Positions 34 through 19,294 of a stretch of DNA of 22,432 bases are shown piece after piece. Numbering within the stretch: the first letter of the stretch is position 1; each line of letters begins with the position of its first letter. A program made the translations under genes and the position numbers. The notes below the pieces were generated by a model, which was given only the letters and a program-made list of their open reading frames with translations, was not told the DNA's origin and ran no database searches. Origin of the DNA: a virus; the IMG/VR virus record IMGVR_UViG_3300048554_000355, positions 1 through 22,432 of that record, one strand, 5' to 3'.

Positions 34-62
34 TTGACAAACTCTAAAATAGAGCATACAAT
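34..62 (+). promoter_or_regulatory. sigma70-type promoter of uvsW (leaderless)
   Basis: TTGACA at 34-39 and TACAAT at 57-62 are separated by exactly 17 bases, a near-consensus sigma70 promoter. Six bases separate the -10 from the uvsW ATG at 69, so initiation 7 bases after the -10 falls on the A of the start codon. No Shine-Dalgarno sequence lies between. The same arrangement occurs at 6013 and 17477. Inferred: early transcription by host RNA polymerase giving a leaderless message. Confidence 0.8.
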
Positions 63-68
63 TAAAAT

Positions 69-1523
69 ATGAAAACAAAACTGATTCTTAAAGATGAAGT
101 CAACTGTAAGTTTGAAGGCTTGGCTTTAACTACTCGCCGTAAACTTGAAAAGAAACTCAAGTTTTTCTTACCTTATGCATTTCATGTGCCAGCATACAAA
201 CTGGGCAGATGGGATGGATGTGTAGGATATTTTACCATGGGTGGCATGACATTTGTAAATTGTTTGCCTTTTATCCTCCCCGTACTCGAAGAAGAAGGAT
301 ATTCAATTGATATAGAGGACGAGAGAGAACCACATAATTTTCAATTTGATTTAGTAACTGAAGAGTTGTTCCGAGACAGGGTTTGGCCCGAAAAACATCC
401 AGCCGCTGGTGAACCAATAGTATTGCGTGACTATCAAGTAGCAGTTATAAATCAATTCTTGCAAACGCCACATTGTTTGCAGGAGATAGCAACTGGTGCC
501 GGTAAAACACTAATTACCGCGGCATTGAGTTACAAGTGTGAACCCTATGGTCGAACGATAGTCATAGTACCCAATAAGGATTTGGTAACGCAAACCGAAG
601 CTGATTATATAAACTTGGGACTTGATGTAGGAGTCTATTTCGGTGACAGAAAAGAGTTGGGGCGAACTCATACCATATGTACTTGGCAGAGTTTAAATGT
701 TTTGGAGAAAAGATTCAGAGACGGACTGAGCGAAAGTGGGTTACACGAATTTGCGGAGGGTGTTGTATGTGTTATGGTAGACGAAGTTCATCAGGCTAAA
801 GCAGACGTATTAAAGAAACTGCTAACTGGTGCATTCTCTAATATTCCAATTCGTTGGGGACTAACAGGTACAATACCCAAAGCAGACCACGAACGATTAA
901 GTTTAGAAGTTAGTTTAGGGGAAGTAGTAAACAGTCTAAGTGCTTATGAACTACAAGACATGGGTGTACTAGCTAACTGTGATGTTAATGTGCTACAACT
1001 GCAAGACAGCGTTAGTTACGGAGATTATCAAAGTGAACTAACGTATCTTACAACTAATAAAGACAGACTGGACTATATGGCTGAGATGATACAAACAATG
1101 GCACAAGCGGGCAATACACTTGTACTAGTAGACCGTATCAAAGCAGGAGAAGGCTTAGTAGAACGTTTAGGTGAAGACACTGTATTTGTAAGTGGTAGTA
1201 TGAAAAGTAAAAACAGAAAAGAAGAGTATGATGAAGTTAGCGATACAAATAATAAAATTATTGTAGCAACCTACGGAGTTGCTAGTGTGGGAATTAATAT
1301 TCCCCGTATCTTTAACTTGGTCCTTGTGGAGCCTGGCAAAAGTTTTGTTAGAGTTATACAAAGTATAGGAAGAGGCATAAGAAAAGCACAGGATAAAGAC
1401 CATGTACAAATATGGGATATAACCAGTAGTGCAAAATTTAGCAAGAGACATTTGACTGAGCGAAAGAAATTTTATCGAGAAGCCAAGTATCCCTTTCATA
1501 TTGAAAAGGTGAATTATAAATGA
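69..1523 (+). CDS. uvsW: UvsW-like ATP-dependent RNA-DNA/DNA helicase
   Basis: Superfamily 2 helicase of the T4 UvsW type. In T4 it unwinds R-loops and branched DNA, regresses stalled forks and shifts replication from origin-dependent to recombination-dependent initiation. Seen: an N-terminal UvsW-like domain (about 1-100) with the K-x-G-x-W-D-G segment near residues 44-50; Walker A ATGAGKT at 141-147 (K146); DEVH box at 238-241; motif III GLTGT at 264-268; motif VI QSIGRGIRK near 434-442. Length 484 aa, against about 500 in T4. The N-terminus lines up with T4 UvsW from the first residues, which supports the ATG at 69 despite the missing ribosome binding site. It overlaps the next gene by 4 bases (ATGA). 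In T4 uvsW is a late gene, whereas the promoter here looks sigma70-like. Confidence 0.95.
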   Translation: MKTKLILKDEVNCKFEGLALTTRRKLEKKLKFFLPYAFHVPAYKLGRWDGCVGYFTMGGMTFVNCLPFILPVLEEEGYSIDIEDEREPHNFQFDLVTEELFRDRVWPEKHPAAGEPIVLRDYQVAVINQFLQTPHCLQEIATGAGKTLITAALSYKCEPYGRTIVIVPNKDLVTQTEADYINLGLDVGVYFGDRKELGRTHTICTWQSLNVLEKRFRDGLSESGLHEFAEGVVCVMVDEVHQAKADVLKKLLTGAFSNIPIRWGLTGTIPKADHERLSLEVSLGEVVNSLSAYELQDMGVLANCDVNVLQLQDSVSYGDYQSELTYLTTNKDRLDYMAEMIQTMAQAGNTLVLVDRIKAGEGLVERLGEDTVFVSGSMKSKNRKEEYDEVSDTNNKIIVATYGVASVGINIPRIFNLVLVEPGKSFVRVIQSIGRGIRKAQDKDHVQIWDITSSAKFSKRHLTERKKFYREAKYPFHIEKVNYK

Positions 1524-3057: not shown

Positions 3058-3758
3058 CAACAGTACAGCAAGTGCTAAGTGCAGTAGGAAACGTTCAGTT
3101 GAAACAAAACACTTTTAAATGTGAATATTGCAAGAAGAGTTTTCAAAAAGAAAGCACTCTGTTGGCACACAGTTGTGAAAAGAAAAGACGTTGGCAAAAC
3201 AAAGATAATCAAGACGTCTTGGTAGGCTTTAGTAGCTATGATTTATTTTATAGAATTGAAATGCAAAGCAAACCTAAAGAATATAAAGACTTTGTAGACA
3301 GTCAATACTATACTGCTTTTGTAAAGTTTGGTGCATACTGCATCAATACTAGAGTAATTGATCAAGAACAGTTTACACGTTGGTTAATAAAAAACAAAGC
3401 CAAACTTAAAGATTGGCCCACTGACAAAATGTATTTGTTGTTTGTACAAGATCATGTTAAGCGTGAAAGTGTAGAACGTGCATTGGAACGTTTCGTAGAA
3501 CATGCGGCAGAGACAGATTACTTTGATACCTTTTGGGAAAGTGCAAGCGGATATGTAATCGCTGATTGGGTTGAAATGGGAAAGATTAGTCCATGGCTAC
3601 TTATTAGTAGTAACAGGGCACAAACTGCATTAGAAACGATGCCAGCTGAATGCATGACTAGAATTGCAAATTGTATTGATGCTGACTATTGGGGTAAGAA
3701 AAGACAGCTAAATCCACATGATGCAAATTTTGTAGAGGAAATGATAGATGGAAAGTAA
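3054..3758 (+). CDS. zinc-finger-containing conserved phage protein
   Basis: A 234-aa protein with an N-terminal C2H2-like finger: C-x2-C at residues 23 and 26, 12 residues, His39, then Cys41 one residue later. The C-x2-C-x12-H half is classical, but the fourth ligand is an unusually close Cys. A basic KKRRWQ stretch follows. The rest is helical and Trp/Tyr-rich, with ISPWLL near 178-183 and a DADYWGKK segment near the end. From memory it is widespread in marine T4-like phages without a function. A zinc finger in a replication/recombination operon suggests DNA or RNA binding. It overlaps both neighbours (4 and 11 bases). Confidence 0.85.
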   Translation: MTTVQQVLSAVGNVQLKQNTFKCEYCKKSFQKESTLLAHSCEKKRRWQNKDNQDVLVGFSSYDLFYRIEMQSKPKEYKDFVDSQYYTAFVKFGAYCINTRVIDQEQFTRWLIKNKAKLKDWPTDKMYLLFVQDHVKRESVERALERFVEHAAETDYFDTFWESASGYVIADWVEMGKISPWLLISSNRAQTALETMPAECMTRIANCIDADYWGKKRQLNPHDANFVEEMIDGK

Positions 3759-5235: not shown

Positions 5236-5243
5236 AATAAATA
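5236..5243 (+). promoter_or_regulatory. late promoter (AATAAATA)
   Basis: AATAAATA, 7 of 8 with the T4 late consensus TATAAATA, lies 18 bases before the ATG at 5262. The predicted start is near 5249, at the ribosome binding site TAAGGA at 5248-5253. The gene downstream looks structural, which fits late expression. Confidence 0.6.
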
Positions 5244-5261: not shown

Positions 5262-6038
5262 ATGTATCAAGCAACTGTATATCAATATAACCAAAGAGCT
5301 GAGGCTCTTGTACCCACAAGAAAGGGTACTAGCTATTATGGACCTGACAATCATAAACCATTGATTGCCTATAGAGGACTCAATATAGAATTTGATTTGT
5401 TTGTTAAAGATACTGATCGAAAACCTCAGTCATTACATAATAAAAATTATACTGCTACAATACTTGATAGAGATACTAAAACTAGTGTCCTTACCAAACC
5501 ATTGGTCCCTGTCGATTATGATCAAGGACAACTTGTACTCAAGTTAGACCACGAAGAAACTATGCTATTAGATGCTAAGTTATATGATCTCATAGTTACT
5601 TATAAGATTACAGATGTGGTCGGAAGCTACGGCGGATCAAGTGATCAAAATTCAAGAGTTACTTTTGTATTAGAAATTAAAGATGGTGCAGTACCTGAAT
5701 TAAGACCTAGTGAAGTAGACACTACTTTTACTCCAATTGGTGATGATCGTTTTAGTGGTAGATTTGAAGGCCCTGTACTTCACAACAGTAAAACTGGACT
5801 GAATACTATGCAAGTACATTACACAAATTATACAGGTGTGTACAAGTTTCAAGCCACACTAAGCATACAGCCAACCGATGCTGACTTTTTTGATGTTACT
5901 GCACAAACTCATACTATTGCATCTGCTACGGCAGTGGATTATCATACATTTATAGGTAACTACACCTATGTTAGATTAGTACATACACCTGATCCAGCTA
6001 ATACAGGAACACTTGACAAAGTCGTTTATAGAAGTTAA
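5262..6038 (+). CDS. probable virion structural protein
   Basis: A 258-aa, Thr/Tyr/Asp-rich, beta-strand-rich protein with no signal peptide or membrane span. The composition, the repeated short strands ending in Gly/Asn turns, and a late promoter plus TAAGGA ribosome binding site just upstream point to a virion component, perhaps a tail or baseplate accessory. The first 140 residues (starting MYQATVYQYNQRAEALV) form one domain built around an FVLEIKDG strand. After a Pro-rich linker (PELRPSE about 144-150) a second beta domain follows. Its place between the DnaE-like gene and the gp61 primase is odd for a structural gene. No specific T4 counterpart recognised. Confidence 0.65.
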   Translation: MYQATVYQYNQRAEALVPTRKGTSYYGPDNHKPLIAYRGLNIEFDLFVKDTDRKPQSLHNKNYTATILDRDTKTSVLTKPLVPVDYDQGQLVLKLDHEETMLLDAKLYDLIVTYKITDVVGSYGGSSDQNSRVTFVLEIKDGAVPELRPSEVDTTFTPIGDDRFSGRFEGPVLHNSKTGLNTMQVHYTNYTGVYKFQATLSIQPTDADFFDVTAQTHTIASATAVDYHTFIGNYTYVRLVHTPDPANTGTLDKVVYRS

Positions 6039-6041
6039 TAT
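6013..6041 (+). promoter_or_regulatory. sigma70-type promoter of primase gene (leaderless)
   Basis: TTGACA at 6013-6018 and TAATAT at 6036-6041 with a 17-base spacer lie over the end of the previous gene. Six bases separate the -10 from ATG 6048, exactly as before uvsW, so the start point falls on the ATG. There is no Shine-Dalgarno sequence. The -10 matches the consensus in 4 of 6 positions. Confidence 0.65.
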
Positions 6042-6047
6042 TAAAAC

Positions 6048-7067
6048 ATGATAGTACTGGACTTTATTCGTCAGCAAATGCCTGGTGGTTGGAAGCAAAC
6101 TCCTAGCGGTTGGGTTAGTGGTAACTGTCCAATGTGCCATACTCGTGGACATAGTCCAGATAAACGCAAACGTGGAGGCATAATGTTCCACGATGACAGC
6201 TTCCAATACAACTGCTTTAACTGTGGATTTAAAACAGGATGGAGTGATGGTAGGCGTATTGCAGGCAAGTTAAGCGATTTGCTTAAAGTATTCGGAACAG
6301 ACGAAAGTGACATACAGCGTATTAACTTTGAAATACTACGAGAGCAAGAAGCAAATGATATCGCTGGACAATATATACCCAAAGAGCGTGTTGAAAAATT
6401 TAAAATAGATTGGGAAGAAAAACAACTACCACAAGACAGTTATCCAATTGGCAGTTATCCATTAGACAAGTTAGATAAAAAACAACTGGACAAACTGAGT
6501 CTTGCATGTACATATCTAATGAAGCGTGGATTGGATTTTTATGAAGATTGGTATTGGTCGCCACATATGCATTTTGCTAGTAGAGTAATACTACCATTTA
6601 GATACAACAACAAGATAGTAGGTTACACAGCAAGATGGGTACCAGAACATAGACCTGAAGCAATGCCCAAATACTATTTGCAACAACAGAAAGATTTTGT
6701 GTTTAATTTAGATGCACAAAAAACACATGATACTATAATTGTTACAGAAGGACAATTGGATGCAATACAGGTAGGTGGTGTTGCACTAGCTGGTAATAGT
6801 CCCAGTGATGCACAGTGTAATATAATTGAAGAACTAGAAAAAGATGTGATACTATTACCTGACTTTGATAAAGCAGGATTGGATACAATCGATAAAGCTA
6901 TTAAACGTGGTTGGAGTGTGGCATTCCCTGAATGGGAAGATGATATTAAGGATGCAAATGATGCTGTAATGCGTTATGGTAGATTGTTTACTGTGCAAAG
7001 TATACTCAACAGCGTAGAAACTAGTGGTACTAAAATAAAAATACTTGCAAAAACTAGATGCAGGTAG
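6048..7067 (+). CDS. 61: DNA primase subunit gp61
   Basis: Primase that works with the gp41 helicase to make short RNA primers for lagging-strand synthesis. Seen: an N-terminal zinc-ribbon with C27-x2-C30 and C56-x2-C59, and a TOPRIM-type catalytic part with the acidic residue E234 in VTEGQLDA and the D272-F-D274 pair in LLPDFDKAG, which bind catalytic metal ions. Length 339 aa, close to T4 gp61 (342). The FRYNNKIVGYTARW segment (about 185-198) is the usual strand region before TOPRIM in this family. It is followed by a small membrane protein gene and gp41, so primase and helicase share one unit, as they function together. Confidence 0.93.
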   Translation: MIVLDFIRQQMPGGWKQTPSGWVSGNCPMCHTRGHSPDKRKRGGIMFHDDSFQYNCFNCGFKTGWSDGRRIAGKLSDLLKVFGTDESDIQRINFEILREQEANDIAGQYIPKERVEKFKIDWEEKQLPQDSYPIGSYPLDKLDKKQLDKLSLACTYLMKRGLDFYEDWYWSPHMHFASRVILPFRYNNKIVGYTARWVPEHRPEAMPKYYLQQQKDFVFNLDAQKTHDTIIVTEGQLDAIQVGGVALAGNSPSDAQCNIIEELEKDVILLPDFDKAGLDTIDKAIKRGWSVAFPEWEDDIKDANDAVMRYGRLFTVQSILNSVETSGTKIKILAKTRCR

Positions 7068-7084: not shown

Positions 7085-7282
7085 ATGATAAAACTAACAC
7101 ATAAATTGGCAGGATTAATATTTGCAGGATTTGGCATATACTTTTTACAGTTGGATTTGCACAGTGATATGATGCACCACGGAAACATGTTGCTAGGACT
7201 AAGTGAGATGACATGGATGTGGTTCGCAATGGCGGCGGTGCATTGGTTGTTACCAGAGTGTAGATGTAAAGGAAACACATGA
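7085..7282 (+). CDS. small two-span membrane protein
   Basis: A 65-aa hydrophobic protein with two likely membrane spans (about 7-22 and 42-57). Between them lies a short loop rich in His and Met (HSDMMHHGNM about 26-35), and the tail has two cysteines (ECRCKGNT). The His/Met loop could bind copper or another soft metal; this is inference from composition. It overlaps the gp41 start by 4 bases (ATGA) and so is tied to helicase expression. AAGGG lies 6 bases upstream of its ATG. No family recognised; membrane anchoring of the replication complex or host-envelope effects are possible but not shown. Confidence 0.7.
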   Translation: MIKLTHKLAGLIFAGFGIYFLQLDLHSDMMHHGNMLLGLSEMTWMWFAMAAVHWLLPECRCKGNT

Positions 7283-8670
7283 GCGAAGATTACACACCAG
7301 ACTTACAAAAGTTATATTTAGAATTCTTGTTGGCAGACAAGGATCTATTTGTACGTTGTAATGCTATCTTAGAAAGCAGTTACTTTGACAGGCAGTTTAG
7401 AGACACTGTGGACTTTGTAAAAAAACATGCAGATGAATACAATGATGTTCCTATGCTAGAGCAGGTCAAAGGTGTTGCTGGCATTGAAATATCTGATGTG
7501 CGTGACAAGCTGACTACAGAACATAAAAATTGGTTTATGGATAACTTTGAACAGTTTTGTAGACACAAAGCACTAGAAGCGGCAATATTACAAAGTGCTG
7601 ATAAACTTGAGAACAAAGAGTATGGCACAGTAGAAGGTATTATCAAAGCGGCAACAGAGATTGGACTTGCTAAGAACTTTGGCACAAACTATTGGGATGA
7701 TCCCGCAGGACGTATACAAAGTATCAAAGATAACAGAGGACAGAACAGTAGTGGCTGGGAGACATTTGATAGAGTATTGTATGGTGGATTTAATCCAGGA
7801 GAATTAAACATCTTTGCAGGTGGTAGTGGTAGTGGTAAGAGTTTGTTTATGCAGAACTTGGCACTGAACTGGGCATTGCAAGGTAAGAACGTAGTGTACA
7901 TTAGTTTGGAACTTAGTGAAGAATTATGTGCTATGAGACTGGATGCTATGCTCACAGGTATGAGTACTAAAGATGTAATGAAGAATAGCAGTGATGTAGA
8001 ATTGCGTGTTAAGATGGCTAGTAAGAAAGCAGGTAAATTGCAAGTAATACAAATGAAGAATGGTACTACTGTTAATGACATCAAAGCATACATGAGAGAA
8101 TATCAAATACAACACAACTTGCATGTTGATGCACTACTAGTTGACTACTTGGATCTTATGATGCCAGTTACAGTAAAAGTTAATCCAAGCGATCAATTTA
8201 TTAAGGACAAGTTTGTTAGTGAAGAATTGCGTAACTTGGCAACTGAACTAGGAATACTATTTGTTACAGCTTCGCAGTTGAATCGTAGTGCAGTTGATGA
8301 GATTGAATTTGACCACAGCCATATTGCAGGTGGGATAAGTAAAATTAATACAGCAGATAACTTGATTGGTATCTTCAGCAGTAGAGCTATGCGAGAGCGT
8401 GGTAGAGTGCAAATACAATTTATGAAAACTAGAAGTAGTAGTGGAGTAGGCAGTAAGCTGGACTTAGCATTTAACATGGACAGTTTAAAGATCGAAGACT
8501 TAGATGAAGATGAACAAGATGATACTAGTACAACTAGCATATATCAAAAACTTAAAACAAAGAGTAGTGTTGCACCAGCAGGTGAAAATATTACAGAAAA
8601 TAATATGGATGCAAGTCCACAAGTCGATGCAACAGATAGACTTAAAAGTTTATTGAGAAAGAGCGAATAG
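7279..8670 (+). CDS. 41: replicative DNA helicase gp41 (DnaB family)
   Basis: Hexameric 5'-3' helicase that unwinds the fork and pairs with gp61 primase. Seen: a helical N-terminal domain (1 to about 150), then a RecA-like core with Walker A G181-S188 (GGSGSGKS, K187), the H1a glutamate in ISLELSEE just after it, Walker B ALLVDYLDLM with D289, and the DnaB-type segment TASQLNRS near 330-337. Length 463 aa, against 475 in T4. The C-terminal tail is acidic and low-complexity (DLDEDEQDD near 412-420), a plausible contact for primase, loader or single-strand-binding protein. Serines are almost all AGT/AGC, typical of this genome. The next gene starts with a GTG on the last base of its stop. Confidence 0.95.
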   Translation: MSEDYTPDLQKLYLEFLLADKDLFVRCNAILESSYFDRQFRDTVDFVKKHADEYNDVPMLEQVKGVAGIEISDVRDKLTTEHKNWFMDNFEQFCRHKALEAAILQSADKLENKEYGTVEGIIKAATEIGLAKNFGTNYWDDPAGRIQSIKDNRGQNSSGWETFDRVLYGGFNPGELNIFAGGSGSGKSLFMQNLALNWALQGKNVVYISLELSEELCAMRLDAMLTGMSTKDVMKNSSDVELRVKMASKKAGKLQVIQMKNGTTVNDIKAYMREYQIQHNLHVDALLVDYLDLMMPVTVKVNPSDQFIKDKFVSEELRNLATELGILFVTASQLNRSAVDEIEFDHSHIAGGISKINTADNLIGIFSSRAMRERGRVQIQFMKTRSSSGVGSKLDLAFNMDSLKIEDLDEDEQDDTSTTSIYQKLKTKSSVAPAGENITENNMDASPQVDATDRLKSLLRKSE

Positions 8671-9107: not shown

Positions 9108-9357
9108 AGAAATGTGCTGAAGTAAAGGTGTCGTGTACCTTATCTCTTTATATTTCTGATGTTGAACAACAAACACTGTGTATTAAAATGAGTCATTATG
9201 TATGAGCCTAAGTTATGCCTGTAATTTGTGTTTGCTTGCCATTGATGATTTTGCTCTTATTGTTAACGGATCCTATGTTCATTATCTTAATTCCTGCTAC
9301 TGCCATAAGTGCTGATCACCAATACTCCAGCAAAGATATTTACTAAATACTATTGAT
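9108..9357. other. gap without a confident gene; micro-ORFs only
   Basis: A 250-base stretch between the GNAT-like gene and the late gene at 9358. On + there are two chained micro-ORFs, 9104-9205 (33 aa, ATGA overlap with the previous stop) and 9202-9315 (37 aa, start MSLSYACNLC, ending CYCHKC). On - there is 9208-9306 (32 aa, start MAVAGIKIMNIGSVNN). The + strand at 9205-9320 is T-rich, as in the known minus-strand gene, which mildly favours the minus reading. None has a ribosome binding site. TGTTGAACAACA near 9157-9168 is a short inverted repeat. The right end holds a late promoter. Confidence 0.4.
9342..9349 (+). promoter_or_regulatory. late promoter (ACTAAATA)
   Basis: ACTAAATA followed by CTATTG; 6 of 8 with TATAAATA and nearly identical to the element at 12033. 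The gene starts 8 bases after it (ATG 9358), so the message would have a leader of only about three bases. It opens the late block 9358-12030. Confidence 0.6.
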
Positions 9358-9597
9358 ATGAAGCGTAAAACAAGATCAATTTTGGAAGAAATTAATGCAA
9401 TGGCACCTAAGCGTGACAAAAAGCATATTGTTGAGTCCAATGGACAGCAAGTTATTCAAACTGCTATAAATTTGATAAATTTAATTAACGAAAGTTTTGA
9501 TGTAGAAACAGCAAGTGATTTGAACAAGAGATTAATTAATGCTATTAGAACAAAAGATCCTAAAAAGTTCGCTAGAGGCATTGGTAAAGTAGAATGA
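9358..9597 (+). CDS. small conserved phage protein, unknown function
   Basis: A 79-aa helical protein with a basic start (MKRKTRSILEEINAM), a central amphipathic helix (QTAINLINLINESF about 36-49), and a basic end (KDPKKFARGIGKV). From memory, similar proteins stand at this place in marine T4-like phages. It directly follows a late promoter and overlaps the next gene by 4 bases (ATGA), so it is probably a virion-associated or assembly protein. The first residues contain I-L-E and L-E-E, which fit the (I/L)-x-E cleavage rule of the T4 prohead protease gp21, so N-terminal processing is conceivable. Confidence 0.75.
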   Translation: MKRKTRSILEEINAMAPKRDKKHIVESNGQQVIQTAINLINLINESFDVETASDLNKRLINAIRTKDPKKFARGIGKVE

Positions 9598-10379
9598 AAA
9601 TTAAAGAAATCCTAAGTGGACCTAAGAAACGTAAAAGACGTGGAAGTCGCTTAACTAGAGTCAAAGGTTCTAGCTTAATTAAAAAACTTAAAGAAGGCGG
9701 CAACATCTTTCCGGATAGTGTGAGCTTTGACCACGCTAAGATTCCAGCACTAATGAAACAAATCAACAGTGTACTTGCTAAGACAGGAAGCAAGGCTATT
9801 CCAATTGGCAGTGGTGCAACACCCACACCAGGTAACGTAAGTGGTGACTTAGATATGATAGTTGATATGGATCAACTAAAGCAACACTTCAATATGGAAG
9901 ATCAAAAAGATCCAGTTATTAGAAAAAAACTAAGACAGGTTTTTGACCTAGCAGGATTTAATACAGGACAAAGCGGTACTAGTGTACATGTCGAAGTACC
10001 TGATGGTGGACAAACACACCAGATAGATATTATGGTTGTACCTAATGCAGAGAATGCGGCAAAGTTTCATACGCATACTATTCCACAAGGTAGCAAATTC
10101 AAAGGTGTAAACAAAATGATTACACTTGCTAAATTAGCAAAGGACCAAAACATGTTATGGTCACCTTACCAAGGATTGTTTAGCAGAGATGCAAATGGTA
10201 AGAAAGCTGATTTAATATCTAGTAATATCGACGAGATAGCAAGAACATTATTAGGCCCTAATGCCTCAGGAAAAGATATAGGCAGTGTCGAAGCTATTGT
10301 AGCGGCATTGGGTAAAGAAAAAGGTGATGCATTGCTAGCAGACTTGCGTAGTGATCCAAATTGGAAAGAGCTTGAATAA
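9594..10379 (+). CDS. Pol-beta-type nucleotidyltransferase-like protein
   Basis: A 261-aa protein with the signature of the DNA polymerase beta nucleotidyltransferase superfamily: G72-S73 (in IPIGSGATPTPG), then D85-L-D87 (SGDLDMIVD) and a third carboxylate D145 in THQIDIMVV. Together these make the two-metal site that transfers a nucleotide. The N-terminus is strongly basic (PKKRKRRGSR about 10-19), suited to nucleic-acid binding. The C-terminal part (about 165-261) is helical, and an LWSPYQGLF segment follows the catalytic domain. The substrate could be an RNA or DNA end, a protein or a small molecule. It is followed with one base of overlap by a ligase-fold protein, so the two probably act together. 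Late-expressed by position. Confidence 0.7.
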   Translation: MKIKEILSGPKKRKRRGSRLTRVKGSSLIKKLKEGGNIFPDSVSFDHAKIPALMKQINSVLAKTGSKAIPIGSGATPTPGNVSGDLDMIVDMDQLKQHFNMEDQKDPVIRKKLRQVFDLAGFNTGQSGTSVHVEVPDGGQTHQIDIMVVPNAENAAKFHTHTIPQGSKFKGVNKMITLAKLAKDQNMLWSPYQGLFSRDANGKKADLISSNIDEIARTLLGPNASGKDIGSVEAIVAALGKEKGDALLADLRSDPNWKELE

Positions 10380-11455
10380 TGAGAGCCAATCAATTTCTAA
10401 CTGAAGCTACTACCAGTAAAGGTAGAGAGTACAATCATTTAGAAGACCTAGTTACATTTGAAGGTAGCAAAGGTGCGTTGAAAGCCGCAGAGATACTAAC
10501 ACGACTAGGACAAGATTCCAAAGATGTTAGCATCAAGTGGGACGGTAATCCAACTATATTTTGGGGAAGAGAACCAGACGGTCAATTTGTAATGACTGGT
10601 AAAAATGGTTGGGGCAAAAACAAAACAACCAGTAGTGGTGAACTACAAGACTTTATTATGAATACAGGTAAAGGCGAAGACTGGCGTAAAGACTTTGCTG
10701 GAGAAATGGCAGGAGTGTTTGAAATACTAGAAGCTAACACACCCGCCGACATGAAGGGATATGTATACGGTGATCTACTGTATACTCCACGCAAGCCAGT
10801 AACAAGTTCACAAGCGGGCTTACAATTTACACCTAACAAAGTTACATACACTGTTGACCCTAACAGTGAGTTAGGAAAGCGTATAGCGGGCAGTACAATG
10901 GGTGTAGTAGTACACACATACCATGATGCATTTGGAGATAAGACAGGTACTCCGATCAAAGACACTAAGAGTATCAACAGTAATGCAGTAGTTGTACTAG
11001 GACAAACGTATGTAACACATCAACCTAAGGTTGATACAAGTGCAGTTCAGGATATAGTTAGTACGGCAAATGCGAACGCACAAATAATAGACACATGGTT
11101 AACGCCGGAACAGGGACTGAGTAGAAAAGATGCAATACTCTATAACTATGTTAACCAAATGACCAAAGCAGGTAAGTTAGACCAACTCAGGACAGGATTT
11201 TATGATTGGCTAAAAACCAGCAAGGTCAGTGCAGGACAGCAAGCAAAACTTATGGCGGGTGATACAAAAGGTCTCGACGCTATATTAGAGCTTGTTGTAA
11301 AAATACAAAATATGAAGAATGATCTTATTGACCAACTAGATAACTCAGGCGCTGATGTTACTGCTAGTACAGGCGGCGAACGTGGCGGTGAAGGCTATGT
11401 TGCAACCAGAGATAAAATTAAACTAGTACCACGTCACCGATGGACACCTAATTAA
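10379..11455 (+). CDS. ligase-fold nucleotidyltransferase-like protein
   Basis: A 358-aa protein with motifs of the covalent nucleotidyltransferase (DNA/RNA ligase, capping enzyme) fold: motif I K53-W-D-G56 (K53 would carry AMP), a motif III-like YVYGDLLY (about 128-135) and near the end EGYVATR (338-344) with K346/K348 like motifs IV and V. The order and spacing are right up to motif III; the long stretch before motif IV is atypical. From memory, similar proteins of marine T4-like phages are annotated only as a family of unknown function (DUF6267). The N-terminus MRANQFLTEA resembles the capsid-targeting sequence of T4 internal proteins, with a gp21-like L-T-E cleavage site. Starts in a TAATG overlap with the nucleotidyltransferase gene. 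Confidence 0.7.
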   Translation: MRANQFLTEATTSKGREYNHLEDLVTFEGSKGALKAAEILTRLGQDSKDVSIKWDGNPTIFWGREPDGQFVMTGKNGWGKNKTTSSGELQDFIMNTGKGEDWRKDFAGEMAGVFEILEANTPADMKGYVYGDLLYTPRKPVTSSQAGLQFTPNKVTYTVDPNSELGKRIAGSTMGVVVHTYHDAFGDKTGTPIKDTKSINSNAVVVLGQTYVTHQPKVDTSAVQDIVSTANANAQIIDTWLTPEQGLSRKDAILYNYVNQMTKAGKLDQLRTGFYDWLKTSKVSAGQQAKLMAGDTKGLDAILELVVKIQNMKNDLIDQLDNSGADVTASTGGERGGEGYVATRDKIKLVPRHRWTPN

Positions 11456-12032: not shown

Positions 12033-12040
12033 ACTAAATA
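12033..12040 (+). promoter_or_regulatory. late promoter (ACTAAATA)
   Basis: ACTAAATAC, 6 of 8 with TATAAATA and the same 8-mer as at 9342. Five bases separate it from ATG 12046, putting the predicted transcript start on that ATG, while a much better ribosome binding site serves ATG 12103, which would then have a leader of 57 bases. Confidence 0.6.
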
Positions 12041-12102
12041 CTAGTATGGAACAGAAACAATACACAGCAAAACAGTGGTCAGAGATCGAAGGAGGACACA
12101 CA

Positions 12103-12897
12103 ATGTCTGAAACTCCTAAAAAACAATATGCTTTCATAGGTGATATGCTAGAAAGCAAAATGTTTAGAAGCAAAGGCAAAGTTGAAGGTAGTAATGCCAG
12201 AGACATGGGAGACTTTGCAATGATGAATATGTTGGCACTTTATGTATTGTATAATGAATATGATTATGCAGTAGTTGCAAGAGACTATGCTAAAAGAACT
12301 ATGCAGTATCAAAACTTTAAAAACTTTAGAGCTGGAGGCACTGATCTTAATATTTCTCTCACCGCAGTTAGAAACGGTATGGCTGATTCGGGTGAAAAAA
12401 ATGAATTACAAAGTTCAAAATTTAACTTTAATGATATGAAGATAAAAACATTTTTAAATATGATAGCACAAGGAAAAAGTCCTACGTCTGTTAGTAGTTT
12501 CTTTATGAGATTAGAAAGAGATTTAGACATACAAAATAGTAACTATCGTAGTATTAGAAGATTGGTACAGGATTGGCCAAGATTAAACAAAATGCAAAAG
12601 CAATTGGTTATTACAAGAATGTTACAATATTTTAGATCAAAAGCATTGCGTAGTGAATTGTATAGTTACATTAGAGATTTAGCTAGAACACAAGGACTAG
12701 AAGCAAAGAATGCACACAATGCAGAAGGCTCACCTAGATCCTTTGGGTCAGACACACTTGCTAAGATAGCTACAGCAACAGCGGCAGTAGCTGGAGGATA
12801 TGCATTAGGAAAAAGTATAGGTGCAAATGCAACTGGAATGCGAGGTGCTGAAAAACTTAATCAAAAGTTAGGATCTTTTAGTAATCGTAAAAGATGA
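12103..12897 (+). CDS. conserved phage protein of unknown function
   Basis: I choose ATG 12103 (264 aa, start MSETPKKQYAFIG) because a perfect AAGGAGG lies at 12089-12095. The in-frame ATG at 12046 would add 19 residues (start MEQKQYTAKQWSEIEGG) and coincides with the predicted start of the late transcript, so a second, leaderless product is possible. The body is helical and basic, with a YVLYNEYDYAVVARDYAKR segment (about 48-66 from 12103) and SFFMRLERDLD. The C-terminus has a small Ala/Gly-rich hydrophobic stretch (IATATAAVAGGYALG) that could be a weak membrane segment. No family recognised. Overlaps the next gene by 4 bases. Confidence 0.75.
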   Translation: MSETPKKQYAFIGDMLESKMFRSKGKVEGSNARDMGDFAMMNMLALYVLYNEYDYAVVARDYAKRTMQYQNFKNFRAGGTDLNISLTAVRNGMADSGEKNELQSSKFNFNDMKIKTFLNMIAQGKSPTSVSSFFMRLERDLDIQNSNYRSIRRLVQDWPRLNKMQKQLVITRMLQYFRSKALRSELYSYIRDLARTQGLEAKNAHNAEGSPRSFGSDTLAKIATATAAVAGGYALGKSIGANATGMRGAEKLNQKLGSFSNRKR

Positions 12898-13862: not shown

Positions 13863-13870
13863 TATAAATA
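13863..13870 (+). promoter_or_regulatory. perfect T4-type late promoter (TATAAATA)
   Basis: TATAAATACTATT matches the T4 late consensus in all 8 core positions. In T4 the core spans about -13 to -6, so +1 would be 13876, exactly the A of the next ATG. No Shine-Dalgarno sequence fits between; the message is predicted to be leaderless. Confidence 0.85.
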
Positions 13871-13875
13871 CTATT

Positions 13876-14163
13876 ATGAATTTAGATGAACTAGATAGCA
13901 CTAATGTGGTTGAAGCACAACTGGTATGGGCGAGGAAAGGTAATCAACTTACTCGTAAATATCGTTGTGTAGTAGGTCAACGAGCTGGTAGACTGGTAAG
14001 CAAGCCAGGACAGTGTAGTGCTCCTATTAACCTAAAGGCCCGACTAACATTAAAAAGAACTAAAGCTCGTATGGGCAAACGCATGGCTAAGAAAGCACAA
14101 CGTACTAAAAGGTTTAATCCAGCAAGTAAAGCACTTAAAAGATTAAACAAACGGAGAAAATAA
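13876..14163 (+). CDS. small, very basic conserved phage protein
   Basis: A 95-aa protein with an acidic first dozen residues (MNLDELDSTNVVEA) and an intensely basic remainder: Arg/Lys-rich from about residue 50 on, ending RLNKRRK. Two cysteines (CVVGQ and GQCSAP, about 31 and 47) frame a GRLVSKPG turn and may form a small metal-binding or disulfide-linked knot. From memory, marine T4-like phages share this protein at the start of a late unit. The charge suggests nucleic-acid binding, for example a capsid-internal DNA-condensing protein; this is inference. A start directly at the late-promoter +1 makes it a candidate leaderless gene. Confidence 0.8.
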   Translation: MNLDELDSTNVVEAQLVWARKGNQLTRKYRCVVGQRAGRLVSKPGQCSAPINLKARLTLKRTKARMGKRMAKKAQRTKRFNPASKALKRLNKRRK

Positions 14164-14777: not shown

Positions 14778-15239
14778 ATGAAGCCAAGACTCTACGATAT
14801 TATCAATACTTTTGATAAAACTTCTAAACAATTAAATGAACGTGCTAATACTGATGTAGATTTGCGAGTAGCAATGACACAAAAAACACAAGAAAACAGT
14901 GTGAGTGTACAACAGTATCGTATTGATGTGATTCAAGAAGACTTTGCAGATAAAAAGAAAAACTTCTACAACATATACGAACATAACGAATTGTTATATA
15001 AAGACATTGCATTATTTGAGAGTGCAATGGGAATTGTTAAAAATCTTATGCGTGGAAGAACACAAAGCGTAAAAGATATTGAAAAAGCTGATTTAGATTA
15101 TAACAATGCATTGTACGAAGTTTACATGTTTAAAAGTAAATCTAAGAGTTCAAATAACCAAGACGTAATGTTAGCAAAATTAGACCATGCACAGAGCAAG
15201 TTAAGCGAAGCAAAATCAAAAATATTAAAAAGACTATAA
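14778..15239 (+). CDS. coiled-coil protein of the late cluster
   Basis: A 153-aa, nearly all-helical protein (start MKPRLYDIINTFDKTSKQL) with long amphipathic stretches at about 35-70 and 100-150, rich in Lys, Glu, Asp and Asn, and no Cys, Pro or membrane span worth noting. It looks like a coiled-coil rod. GAGG (14767-14770) is a fair ribosome binding site. The last codons overlap a late promoter (TATAAATA 15235-15242) for the next gene. A scaffold, core or connector role in the prohead would fit its shape and position, but there is no recognisable T4 counterpart. Confidence 0.75.
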   Translation: MKPRLYDIINTFDKTSKQLNERANTDVDLRVAMTQKTQENSVSVQQYRIDVIQEDFADKKKNFYNIYEHNELLYKDIALFESAMGIVKNLMRGRTQSVKDIEKADLDYNNALYEVYMFKSKSKSSNNQDVMLAKLDHAQSKLSEAKSKILKRL

Positions 15240-15242
15240 ATA
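15235..15242 (+). promoter_or_regulatory. perfect T4-type late promoter (TATAAATA)
   Basis: TATAAATAC overlaps the stop codon of the preceding gene. Predicted +1 near 15248 gives a leader of about 20 bases with AACGGGAA before ATG 15268, a conventional leader unlike the one at 13863. Confidence 0.85.
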
Positions 15243-15267: not shown

Positions 15268-16437
15268 ATGTATCTAAATGATTTAAATTCAAGTCAACAT
15301 AACGTAGACAAGTTGAATAAGATACTATCACAAACTTTTAACCACGAGGTTGATTTGTCTGAGATGAGTACTGATTCACTTAACAGAATGTTGACCACAA
15401 CAAATGCCAAAATGACGGCAATTAAAGAAAGCGATCTCACATATTGGGAAAATGCACAGTATAATAAATTAGGATTAATTTCACATCAAATTAAAGAATA
15501 TTTGAATGAAATTGCACCAACAAGAGGCGACGGCAAAAAAATGAAAACCAAAGAAAGCACAGTAATGGAAGCTGATTTGGATCAAGCAGAAGTATTGCTA
15601 GCCGCACAAGAACTAGTTGACGAAATGCAAAAAATGGTAGAAGGCGTTGCAGAGATGCAAGTACAAAAACTTATGCCAATTGTAGATGCAATGAAAGAGC
15701 AAGTAGGATTTGAAGTAGCAGAAGCATACAACAATGCCGCTGATGGTGCATTAGGCGCACTATTAGATGCTATGAAAACTGCTAAAGAAGCAGTTGAAAA
15801 TGCAACACTAGCCGCTAGAGGCGAGCCTGTACCAGGTGGCGAAGCAATGCCAACAGATATGGGAATGGATGATGCTGATATGGATCCAGAAGCACCAATT
15901 GATGATATGGGTGCAGATGAGTTCGGCGGAGATGACTCAGAAGCAGGCGAAGAAAATCCAGTAGGCAGAGAACTTAAAGGCGAGAGTGCTATTGCTGATA
16001 TGGAGCGAGGTGCGTTAGCTGAAAAAAAGTTTTTAGAGAGTAAAGACAAACTCTTCAAAATGGTCGAAAGTGGTGAGATGACACAGGAACACTTTATCAA
16101 CATCATTGGTGAATTCCAAGGTAGATCAGGTGAACTTGATACAAGCACAATTGGCACACCTCAGCAAAAAGGTGTTGACGGAATAGTAGGTGGAGTTGGT
16201 ACAATTTATAAACCACCATCGAAGAAGAAACCACAAGCTCCTAAGAAATTTGTACCTGTACCTCCACAAGACTCCGGAGTTGGAGTTGATACACAGCCGC
16301 CAAAACCAAATGTAGGCGGACTTAGAACTGCGGATCTAAGAAAAGGCGATGTTGGTTTTGATGCTGTACAGAAAAGATTTAACATGTTTAAGAAAGCCAA
16401 GCCACAAGCAGGCATGAACTTGAGTGGAAACAAGTAA
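15268..16437 (+). CDS. acidic structural/scaffold-like protein
   Basis: A 389-aa protein in three parts. Residues 1 to about 90 are helical (start MYLNDLNSSQHNVDKLNK). Residues about 95-180 form a long Ala/Glu/Met-rich helix (DLDQAEVLLAAQELVDEMQK). Then comes a very acidic, Asp/Met/Gly-rich stretch (about 195-235), a short helical domain with SKDKLFKMVESGEMT (about 258-272), and a Pro/Lys/Gly-rich tail. From memory, marine T4-like phages carry a similar structural protein. The helix plus acidic tract recalls prohead core proteins, and several (I/L)-x-E triplets (IKE, LNE) would suit cleavage by a gp21-type protease. Its own late promoter suggests high expression. One-base TAATG overlap with the next gene. 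Confidence 0.75.
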   Translation: MYLNDLNSSQHNVDKLNKILSQTFNHEVDLSEMSTDSLNRMLTTTNAKMTAIKESDLTYWENAQYNKLGLISHQIKEYLNEIAPTRGDGKKMKTKESTVMEADLDQAEVLLAAQELVDEMQKMVEGVAEMQVQKLMPIVDAMKEQVGFEVAEAYNNAADGALGALLDAMKTAKEAVENATLAARGEPVPGGEAMPTDMGMDDADMDPEAPIDDMGADEFGGDDSEAGEENPVGRELKGESAIADMERGALAEKKFLESKDKLFKMVESGEMTQEHFINIIGEFQGRSGELDTSTIGTPQQKGVDGIVGGVGTIYKPPSKKKPQAPKKFVPVPPQDSGVGVDTQPPKPNVGGLRTADLRKGDVGFDAVQKRFNMFKKAKPQAGMNLSGNK

Positions 16438-17368: not shown

Positions 17369-17512
17369 GCTAGTAAGGATATGGCAGTCACTTGACGGTG
17401 ATAATAAAGCTATATTATTTTGTATCATATTATCTATTTTATTAGCTTATTTTGACCCAAGATGGCAAAGTTTTCATTGACAACATAATAGCTTTTTGTT
17501 ACAATAAGCTAT
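17356..17512. repeat. AATAAGCTA repeats around the nuclease promoter
   Basis: AATAAGCTAT occurs at 17356-17365 and again at 17503-17512, the latter overlapping the -10 element and start codon of the nuclease gene. An inverted copy (TAGCTTATT, 17443-17451) and a copy with one extra A (17403-17413) lie between. The two middle copies can pair to form a long-loop stem followed by TTTT, so a terminator is possible; the copy on the promoter suggests an operator. Confidence 0.45.
17477..17505 (+). promoter_or_regulatory. sigma70-type promoter of nuclease gene (leaderless)
   Basis: TTGACA at 17477-17482, 17 bases, TACAAT at 17500-17505: the same two hexamers and spacer as before uvsW. Five bases separate it from ATG 17511, so transcription should begin at or within a base of the start codon. 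No ribosome binding site is present. Confidence 0.8.
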
Positions 17513-18176
17513 GTTAAATATAAATCACATTTACCCGTATAAAGAATTTAAACGTAAGAGTGTAGGCGGTAAACGTCTATACGAAAACCCGTATGGCGAT
17601 CCTGTGCCTAGTGTGACTACTATCCTCAGTAAAACAAAGGATATGACACACCTTAATGCTTGGAAAAAGCGAGTGGGCGAAAAGAAAGCACAAGAGATTG
17701 TAACTGAAGCCGCAAATGTAGGCACAATTATGCACAACATGTTAGAAGCATGGAGCCTCAATGAGGAATACACAGGTACTAATATGTTACAAGCCAAAAT
17801 GATGGCAGAGACTGTTATTAAAAATATTGAACCTGACATTGATGAAGTTTGGGGTAGCGAAGTAAACTTGTGTTACCCGGGACTATATGCAGGCACCACA
17901 GACCTAGTGGGCATATACAAAGGCAAGCCTACTATTATGGATTTTAAGCAAACCAACAAACCTAAAAAGCGTGAGTGGATTGATGATTACTTTATGCAAG
18001 CCGCCGCTTATGGAATGGCACATAATGAGGTGTTTGAAACTAAAATTGAACATGCGGCAATTTTTATGTGCAGTAGAGATTGTGATTGGCAACTATGGGA
18101 AGTAGGGCCAGAAGATTTTAAAGTTTGGGAAGAAAAATGGGCAAAGAGAGTGGAAGAGTTCTACAACTTGTCATAA
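17511..18176 (+). CDS. PD-(D/E)XK nuclease, RecB/Cas4 type
   Basis: A 221-aa protein with the full RecB/Cas4-type nuclease motif set: H75 (GTIMHNMLEA), E117, D131 (AGTTDLVG), D144-F-K146 (IMDFKQTNK) and Q163-x3-Y167 (MQAAAYG). Catalysis would use two metal ions held by H75, D131 and D144, with K146. It is a single nuclease domain, without helicase parts or the four-cysteine iron-sulfur cluster of Cas4. Likely a DNA exonuclease or flap nuclease for recombination, host-DNA breakdown or DNA maturation. It sits between two late structural units but has its own early-type, leaderless promoter, so its timing probably differs from its neighbours. Ends at a late promoter. Confidence 0.88.
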   Translation: MLNINHIYPYKEFKRKSVGGKRLYENPYGDPVPSVTTILSKTKDMTHLNAWKKRVGEKKAQEIVTEAANVGTIMHNMLEAWSLNEEYTGTNMLQAKMMAETVIKNIEPDIDEVWGSEVNLCYPGLYAGTTDLVGIYKGKPTIMDFKQTNKPKKREWIDDYFMQAAAYGMAHNEVFETKIEHAAIFMCSRDCDWQLWEVGPEDFKVWEEKWAKRVEEFYNLS

Positions 18177-18179
18177 ATA
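18172..18179 (+). promoter_or_regulatory. late promoter (CATAAATA)
   Basis: CATAAATAC overlaps the stop codon of the nuclease gene; 7 of 8 with TATAAATA. Predicted +1 near 18185, with the ribosome binding site AGGAG at 18187-18191 and ATG at 18198. Confidence 0.75.
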
Positions 18180-18197
18180 CTGTATCAGGAGTACAAA

Positions 18198-18857
18198 ATG
18201 GCAACAACTAGATTAAGTAAGATAAGAGTCAGGCAAGGTAATTTTTCTGACTTGCCTGTATTAGATCCGGGTGAACTTGGATATGCAAAAGACCAAAGAC
18301 GTTTGTTTATTGGTAATGATGTAGTAAGTGTAGGAACCGGTAACGGTGTATTGACAGCATTTACAATTCCTTTAGCATTAAGCAAACCTAATATTACAAC
18401 TGTAAGTGTTGCAGGCAGTGCAGTTAATGCTAGTACCTATACAATTAGTGGAACAACATTAACATTTGCTAGTGCTCCGACTGGTGCTATCACTGTTGGC
18501 TTTAATAACGAGATTGATATTGTCAGTGATGTTACAATACCAAGTGAAATTAGTTTAGCCGCAAACGGTAGCTCAGCTGATACAGGATTTCAAATTGATA
18601 CAAGTTTGTATAATGTTGTAGTTATGGACTACACCTTAGAAAGTACAAACGGTGTTAGAATTGGACAACTAAGATTTGGAACTGATACAAGTGCAAGTGC
18701 AAATACTATTGGTGACAATTATACAGAAACAGCCGCCGTAGGAATTACTTTTAGCTTAGATACTGCAACTGCAAATACTCTAAAGCTACAGTATACCGAT
18801 GCAGATAACCTTATAACAAAATTTAAGTATACATATCAACTTTGGAACAGCAATTAA
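18198..18857 (+). CDS. probable tail fibre/decoration protein
   Basis: A 219-aa protein. Its start (IRVRQGNFSDLPVLDPGELGYAKDQRRLFIGN, about 9-40) carries the short G-E-L-G-Y, R-L-F-I-G-N segment found at the N-terminus of many phage tail-fibre and receptor-binding proteins (the Mtd-type N-terminal domain). After it come Thr/Ser/Val-rich beta strands (about 48-110, VSVAGSAVNASTYTISGTTLTF) and a final beta domain (about 125-219) ending QLWNSN. No membrane span or signal. Strong late promoter and AGGAG site, so abundant late expression is expected. Attachment to the tail, fibre network or capsid cannot be told. The last codons overlap the next gene by 16 bases. Confidence 0.7.
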   Translation: MATTRLSKIRVRQGNFSDLPVLDPGELGYAKDQRRLFIGNDVVSVGTGNGVLTAFTIPLALSKPNITTVSVAGSAVNASTYTISGTTLTFASAPTGAITVGFNNEIDIVSDVTIPSEISLAANGSSADTGFQIDTSLYNVVVMDYTLESTNGVRIGQLRFGTDTSASANTIGDNYTETAAVGITFSLDTATANTLKLQYTDADNLITKFKYTYQLWNSN

Positions 18858-19294
18858 TACACACTGCTTGGTTTGAATCTCCAACTGCTAGATTAAGTCA
18901 GTGGCGGGAGTTTCGTAAAGGCTTGGATACAGACAACACACAAGAAGTCTGTAATACAGTAATAGATTGGTGGAAAATGGCACCAATTAGTAAAATGACC
19001 ATTGACCCTGTGAACAGTACTACATGGCCTACGCCGTGGGAGATGTTACACAGTGGAGATTTTTGTGAAAGCAGTTTGGCGCTGGGCATGAGTTATACAA
19101 TTTATTATGCAAATGAAACAATACCCAACGAGCTACTGTACATCACAGATAGAAATAATAGCACACAAAAATTATGTGCGTGGATTGACAATAAGTATCT
19201 GCTTAATTACGAACACGGTGCGATAAGTACACTACCAACCGAAAACATATCGATCAGCTTCCGCAAAAAAATTGCGGATGTGATCAAATGCTGA
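18842..19294 (+). CDS. conserved phage protein of unknown function
   Basis: A 150-aa protein, start at TTG 18842, overlapping the previous gene by 16 bases; the first ATG (18978) would remove the conserved WFESPTARLSQWREF region (about 10-24), so the TTG start is preferred. It is rich in Trp, with WPTPWEMLHSGDFCESSLALGMSYTIYY (about 62-89) as the most distinctive part, and LLNYEHG further on. From memory it is shared by marine T4-like phages close to nrd or structural genes and has no name. Near its end CCGCAA(19261)/TTGCGG(19272) forms a perfect hairpin within the coding sequence. A role beyond late or middle expression cannot be assigned. Confidence 0.8.
   Translation: MEQQLIHTAWFESPTARLSQWREFRKGLDTDNTQEVCNTVIDWWKMAPISKMTIDPVNSTTWPTPWEMLHSGDFCESSLALGMSYTIYYANETIPNELLYITDRNNSTQKLCAWIDNKYLLNYEHGAISTLPTENISISFRKKIADVIKC

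Follow-up and report, generated by a model that had tools for sequence, protein, structure and literature searches.

Promoters fused to start codons: a predicted leaderless class of early-type and late-type genes in an uncultured phage lineage

The phage lineage studied here very probably has a conserved, gene-specific class of promoters that are fused to start codons and would give leaderless messages, beside an ordinary leadered class. The window, i.e. the whole stretch of DNA analysed, is 22,432 nt long (positions 1 to 22,432 of the IMG/VR virus record IMGVR_UViG_3300048554_000355). It belongs to an uncultured, mostly marine group, whose UvsW is 51-56% identical to that of the jumbo phages Phosso, PA5oct and Atu_ph07. 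A megablast search of the window against deposited phages gave no match, and there is no close deposited relative. To describe the promoters genome-wide, the window and eight relatives (45-172 kb) were read whole, in total nine contigs and 745 kb.

Three genes in the window are directly preceded by a sigma70-type promoter:

34..62, + strand: sigma70-type promoter of uvsW; TTGACA at 34-39, 17 nt, TACAAT at 57-62, then 6 nt to the ATG at 69
69..1523, + strand: uvsW, UvsW-like DNA helicase, predicted leaderless (phrog_16 DNA helicase, E 9e-78; ResIII, Helicase_C)
6013..6041, + strand: sigma70-type promoter of gp61; TTGACA at 6013-6018, 17 nt, TAATAT at 6036-6041, then 6 nt to the ATG at 6048
6048..7067, + strand: gp61-like DNA primase, predicted leaderless (phrog_47 DNA primase, E 1e-33)
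17477..17505, + strand: sigma70-type promoter of the nuclease; TTGACA at 17477-17482, 17 nt, TACAAT at 17500-17505, then 5 nt to the ATG at 17511
17511..18176, + strand: nuclease, a phage exonuclease-family protein, predicted leaderless (phrog_298 exonuclease, E 5e-56)

The sites match 10-11 of the 12 consensus positions, and their boxes lie 17 nt apart, inside the 16-18 nt expected between TTGACA and a TATAAT-like box. A preliminary description of this DNA had reported just this arrangement of boxes 5-6 nt before the three ATGs, as well as the lack of a Shine-Dalgarno site; the former is exact at all three genes, and no core motif (GGAG, AGGA, GAGG, AGGG or AAGG at Shine-Dalgarno distance) is found at any of the starts. 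It had also suggested a scan with shuffled controls. When both strands of the window were scanned for TTGACA-N17-TANNNT-N4-9-ATG, the three sites compared with a mean of 0.07 expected from dinucleotide shuffles, which never reached three. The start codon is ATG in uvsW, gp61, the nuclease and their close homologues, a point to which the genome-wide scan adds nothing since ATG was built into it.

The primase gene is the first in a run that leads into a gp41-like helicase (7279-8670). Its promoter is embedded in coding DNA: the preceding structural gene contains the -35 box, and its stop codon is overlapped by the -10 box. At the nuclease locus, a reading frame in the gap 5' of the gene (17369-17510) ends in ...WQSFH with its TGA stop inside TTGACA, and in relatives the upstream gene often terminates at this same TGA.

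To follow the promoters through evolution, homologous loci of the three genes were taken from IMG/VR and the sequence 5' of each gene was compared. Both boxes and their spacing are kept at all three genes, as the preliminary description had proposed to examine. The uvsW promoter is present in 14 out of 14 distinct homologues with at least 85% identity and in 8 out of 8 at 75-85%, in every one at exactly 6 nt; at 60-75% identity it is present in 9/49 and missing in 40/49. The gp61 promoter is kept in 51 out of 55 homologues, even where identity falls to about 42% or lower, with 47 at exactly 6 nt, and every one of the 51 nuclease homologues has its promoter, 5 or 6 nt before the ATG. In all three genes conservation reaches or approaches 100% at the strongest box positions, and most spacer positions are far more variable.

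The overlap at gp61 allows the DNA to be compared with the protein that it encodes. In the 41 upstream genes that end in L/V/I-D-K, which share ancestry and like the other homologues do not count as independent events, the codons under the -35 box are xTT in 41/41, GAC in 40/41 and AAA in 41/41, while GAC codon usage in the lineage is 32%. The -35 bases are thus fixed at free codon positions, i.e. it is the DNA and not the protein that is conserved there. Downstream of the promoters, the proteins are conserved across relatives from their first residues (MKTKLILKDEV / MKCKIILKDEV; MLNINHIYPY / MLKITTPYPY), and for uvsW the conservation starts at the ATG at 69.

In the nine contigs, the distance from strong sigma70-type -10 boxes to ATG was anchored on 951 gene starts. 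We find 22 genes at 6 nt, five at 5 nt and two at 7 nt, compared with a nearby background of 0.38 per position. Other promoters form a broad class with the -10 box 18-45 nt before the ATG, in this anchored count mostly at about 20-36 nt. The Shine-Dalgarno core is found in 0/33 of the near class (5-7 nt) versus 51/63 of the leadered class. A spike without Shine-Dalgarno sites together with a broad class that mostly has them points to two designs, one leaderless and one leadered. Counted as early-type gene families, there are 10 leaderless versus 52 leadered, and five of the ten leaderless families are seen in at least two contigs.

Many early promoters also carry a palindrome like CCAAGACGTCTTGG in the spacer (17 of 119 promoters with an ORF; 15 leadered, one leaderless), for instance in relatives G001 (12494, 50131, 55820, 57433), G002 (68056), G003, G005 and G017. 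From their sequence, these palindromes look like a repressor operator. Within the window, the core AAGACGTCTT is present a single time (3211-3220), in a gene and with no promoter.

The same alignment to the start codon is found with a second, unrelated box. The T4-type late promoter is TATAAATA in T4 and NATAAATA in cyanomyoviruses (PMC2984593). The lineage has the same box, likewise 5' of structural genes, which include a head-tail adaptor and virion proteins. In the window the late boxes and the two genes closest to them are:

5238..5243, + strand: late box of the leadered class, 18 nt to the ATG at 5262
9344..9349, + strand: late box TAAATA, 8 nt to the ATG at 9358 of a virion structural protein gene (phrog_11854)
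12035..12040, + strand: late box TAAATA, exactly 5 nt to the ATG at 12046; the 5 nt are kept in 13/14 distinct relatives
12046..12897, + strand: predicted leaderless late gene with the late box 5 nt upstream, no PHROG or Pfam match
13863..13870, + strand: late box TATAAATA, exactly 5 nt to the ATG at 13876
13876..14163, + strand: 95-aa basic protein, predicted leaderless late gene with the late box 5 nt upstream, no PHROG match
15237..15242, + strand: late box of the leadered class, 25 nt to the ATG at 15268 of a virion structural protein gene (phrog_14154)
18174..18179, + strand: late box of the leadered class, 18 nt to the ATG at 18198, with AGGAG at 18187-18191

Anchored on the same 951 starts, 46 genes have TAAATA at exactly 5 nt upstream of the ATG, against a background of 1.1 per position, so that this spike outnumbers the early one at 6 nt (46 versus 22); as the test was prompted by the window itself, its nominal P values are descriptive. 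The spike is seen in each of the eight relatives. Genes with the late box 0-12 nt before ATG carry a Shine-Dalgarno core in 5/103 cases, versus 127/198 of the leadered late sites. Late gene families are leaderless in 35 cases and leadered in 131, and nine of the 35 are seen in at least two contigs. For the gene of the 95-aa protein, the 5 nt are kept in 19 out of 30 distinct relatives, including the whole close clade, and the gene is leaderless by this spacing in all seven contigs that have a late box there. There is also a minor peak at 8 nt before ATG, with 12 sites and almost none at 6 or 7 nt; from the box position, a 3-nt leader would be expected at these sites, including the ATG at 9358.

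Homemade profiles and phrog_12791/phrog_12780 did not detect a gp55 late sigma factor in the contigs of the lineage, which are fragments, and a wider scan returned four contigs, none of them tied to the window's lineage. A gp55-type factor is present in Phosso, Atu_ph07 and PA5oct. The late factor of the lineage is thus inferred from the motif and the genes under it.

A sigma70 -10 box spans -12 to -7, which leaves six bases to +1, and a T4 late box spans -13 to -6, which leaves five. With spikes at 6 nt and at 5 nt, the textbook +1 therefore coincides in both cases with the A of the ATG, and this agreement between two promoter types of different geometry argues for leaderless starts. Leaderless transcription, the reading that the preliminary description had given to this geometry, would best explain both the conserved spacing and the absence of Shine-Dalgarno sites.

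Leaderless messages can be entered by 70S ribosomes. According to our model, the host RNA polymerase, carrying the main sigma factor, would begin transcription from TTGACA-N17-TANNNT at the A of the ATG or at most one base away from it. Later, the polymerase would be redirected to T4-type late boxes (TAAATA) and begin at the same point, with the same tolerance. On the leader-free message, the ribosome would enter at the 5'-terminal AUG, probably as a 70S particle. The leaderless set would be fixed: its early members would be uvsW, gp61, the nuclease and a dNMP-kinase-like gene, and its late members would include virion genes. The remaining genes of the same phages would have a leader, of about 12-40 nt and in most cases with a Shine-Dalgarno site. 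The transcription start, the 70S entry and the timing in this model are predicted from motif, spacing, conservation, the two-class distribution and the missing Shine-Dalgarno sites.

Two wider claims of the preliminary description are not supported. Leaderless starts were proposed to mark the first genes of early units, but sigma70-type promoters are mostly leadered and the leaderless form is commoner at late boxes. Being a minority in both the early and the late class, it neither marks early units nor replaces ordinary initiation. It was also suggested that the fused genes keep being translated when leadered initiation changes after infection. However, leadered genes, mostly with Shine-Dalgarno sites, are the majority in both classes, and a candidate cause of such a change was not found: RegB is the T4 nuclease that cuts Shine-Dalgarno sites, and its Pfam family PF10715 matched T4 only and none of the contigs of the lineage. 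The likeliest reason for the fused design, and this is a guess, is compactness together with a set level of translation.

Cultured phages provide an independent replication. In the Pelagibacter phages HTVC008M and Mosig, a lineage separate from that of the window (about 27% UvsW identity), the late box is likewise in excess exactly 5 nt before ATG, with 12 TAAATA-N5-ATG sites versus 1.0 expected in HTVC008M and six versus 0.9 in Mosig. Melnitz, which has an OM43 host, has three sites versus 0.6 expected, a small count. In HTVC008M, nine out of nine ATAAATA-N5-ATG sites coincide with deposited CDS starts (6280, 7562, 16007(-), 18916(-), 19456, 31132, 49760, 75559 and 142360), and the genes include the tail tube cap, a baseplate wedge, the tape measure and the end-protector; unlike in the window's lineage, the early leaderless signal is weak. 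T4, Syn9, S-PM2 and P-HM2, where the late box is followed by a leader, have no clear excess of boxes at 5 nt, nor do the parts of Atu_ph07, PA5oct and Phosso that were covered. For a DUF6267 protein of the window (10379-11455), the distant relatives (23-26% identity in the best matches) come solely from cyanophages and a single marine single-cell virus.

The shared late geometry of the two Pelagibacter phages makes an alphaproteobacterial host plausible. Such a host alone does not predict the late fusion, since the Sinorhizobium phages phiM12 and phiM9 and the Caulobacter phage Cr30 have zero TAAATA-N5-ATG sites. The attempt to assign a host from bacterial genome contigs was discarded, as it gave three matches, with two MAGs of different classes (Gammaproteobacteria and Rickettsiales).

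Could the promoters be real and their position at the ATG a mere result of compact packing, with translation mainly from read-through RNA by non-Shine-Dalgarno initiation? The genes are indeed packed tightly, with one strand carrying most of them, there is the overlap of the gp61 promoter with the preceding gene, and initiation of this kind must be common anyway, as a Shine-Dalgarno core is found in only about half of the genes of at least 150 aa. However, packing alone does not give spikes one base wide at 6 nt and, with another box, at 5 nt, and the spikes are absent from the equally packed T4 and cyanophages, so that we consider this explanation unlikely. Read-through RNA from upstream genes could still supply leadered copies of the leaderless-class genes. 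Additional downstream ATGs exist in some genes, which would fit an annotation artefact in which the true start codons come later and a short leader of the ordinary kind follows each promoter, but both the conservation of the proteins from their first residues and the match with the deposited HTVC008M starts speak against it, and we regard it as highly improbable.

Fused, leaderless promoters could also be part of a translation switch, an extension of our preferred reading and not exclusive with it, where a phage bS21 or another factor biases ribosomes to leaderless messages. According to one proposal, phage-encoded bS21 would give phage messages an advantage late in infection (PMC9723584). Among the relatives, 14 out of 18 contigs carry a bS21 gene, as do the phages HTVC008M, Mosig and Melnitz. 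T4 and three cyanophages, which show no leaderless class, have none. On the other hand, bS21 is present in Phosso, Atu_ph07 and PA5oct, where the parts covered show no spike, and is thus not sufficient; moreover, most genes of the lineage remain leadered, and the window itself has no bS21. We give the switch a low probability. It is similarly doubtful that there is a dedicated leaderless channel, by which early replication and late virion genes would be translated preferentially by phage-altered ribosomes (e.g. with bS21), apart from the Shine-Dalgarno genes. The bS21 genes of the lineage (G001 18941-19093, G002 62065-62220 and others) themselves have a GAGGAAA-type Shine-Dalgarno site upstream.

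For lambda cI, the promoter PRM is near enough to the ATG for the RNA to start at the AUG; this is a single regulatory gene, whereas the window's lineage has a conserved genome-wide class. Leaderless messages are common in some alphaproteobacteria, and 375 and 171 have been mapped in Caulobacter crescentus and Sinorhizobium meliloti (PMC4117421, PMC3616915). These resemble the fused genes in starting at the A of AUG, in having no Shine-Dalgarno site and in forming a sizeable minority class per genome, but they are cellular and were mapped by RNA 5' ends, whereas those of the lineage are of phage origin, predicted from promoter spacing and under two promoter types. The Thermus phage phiYS40 also has leaderless messages, there a temporal class, middle and late, tied to changes in IF2/IF3 (PMC3594737). 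That programme is class-wide, whereas in the window's lineage the leaderless genes are a gene-specific minority of both early-type (10 versus 52 families) and late-type genes (35 versus 131), with leadered genes alongside.

In the literature covered, which left most subscription journals outside, we found no prior report of this arrangement. Leaderless phage messages were previously known mostly as single cases or from Thermus phages. Here the alignment to the start codon is specific to certain genes, is conserved, and involves two promoter types that are unrelated and differ in their spacing. The phage group with fused promoters has been found in many metagenomes; its late form also occurs in the Pelagibacter phages, but not in T4 or the cyanophages. 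The finding gives a prediction in the cultured phage HTVC008M and would let the exact starts of RNA and protein be called from the sequence itself. A further question that it raises is how leaderless messages are translated in SAR11-type hosts.
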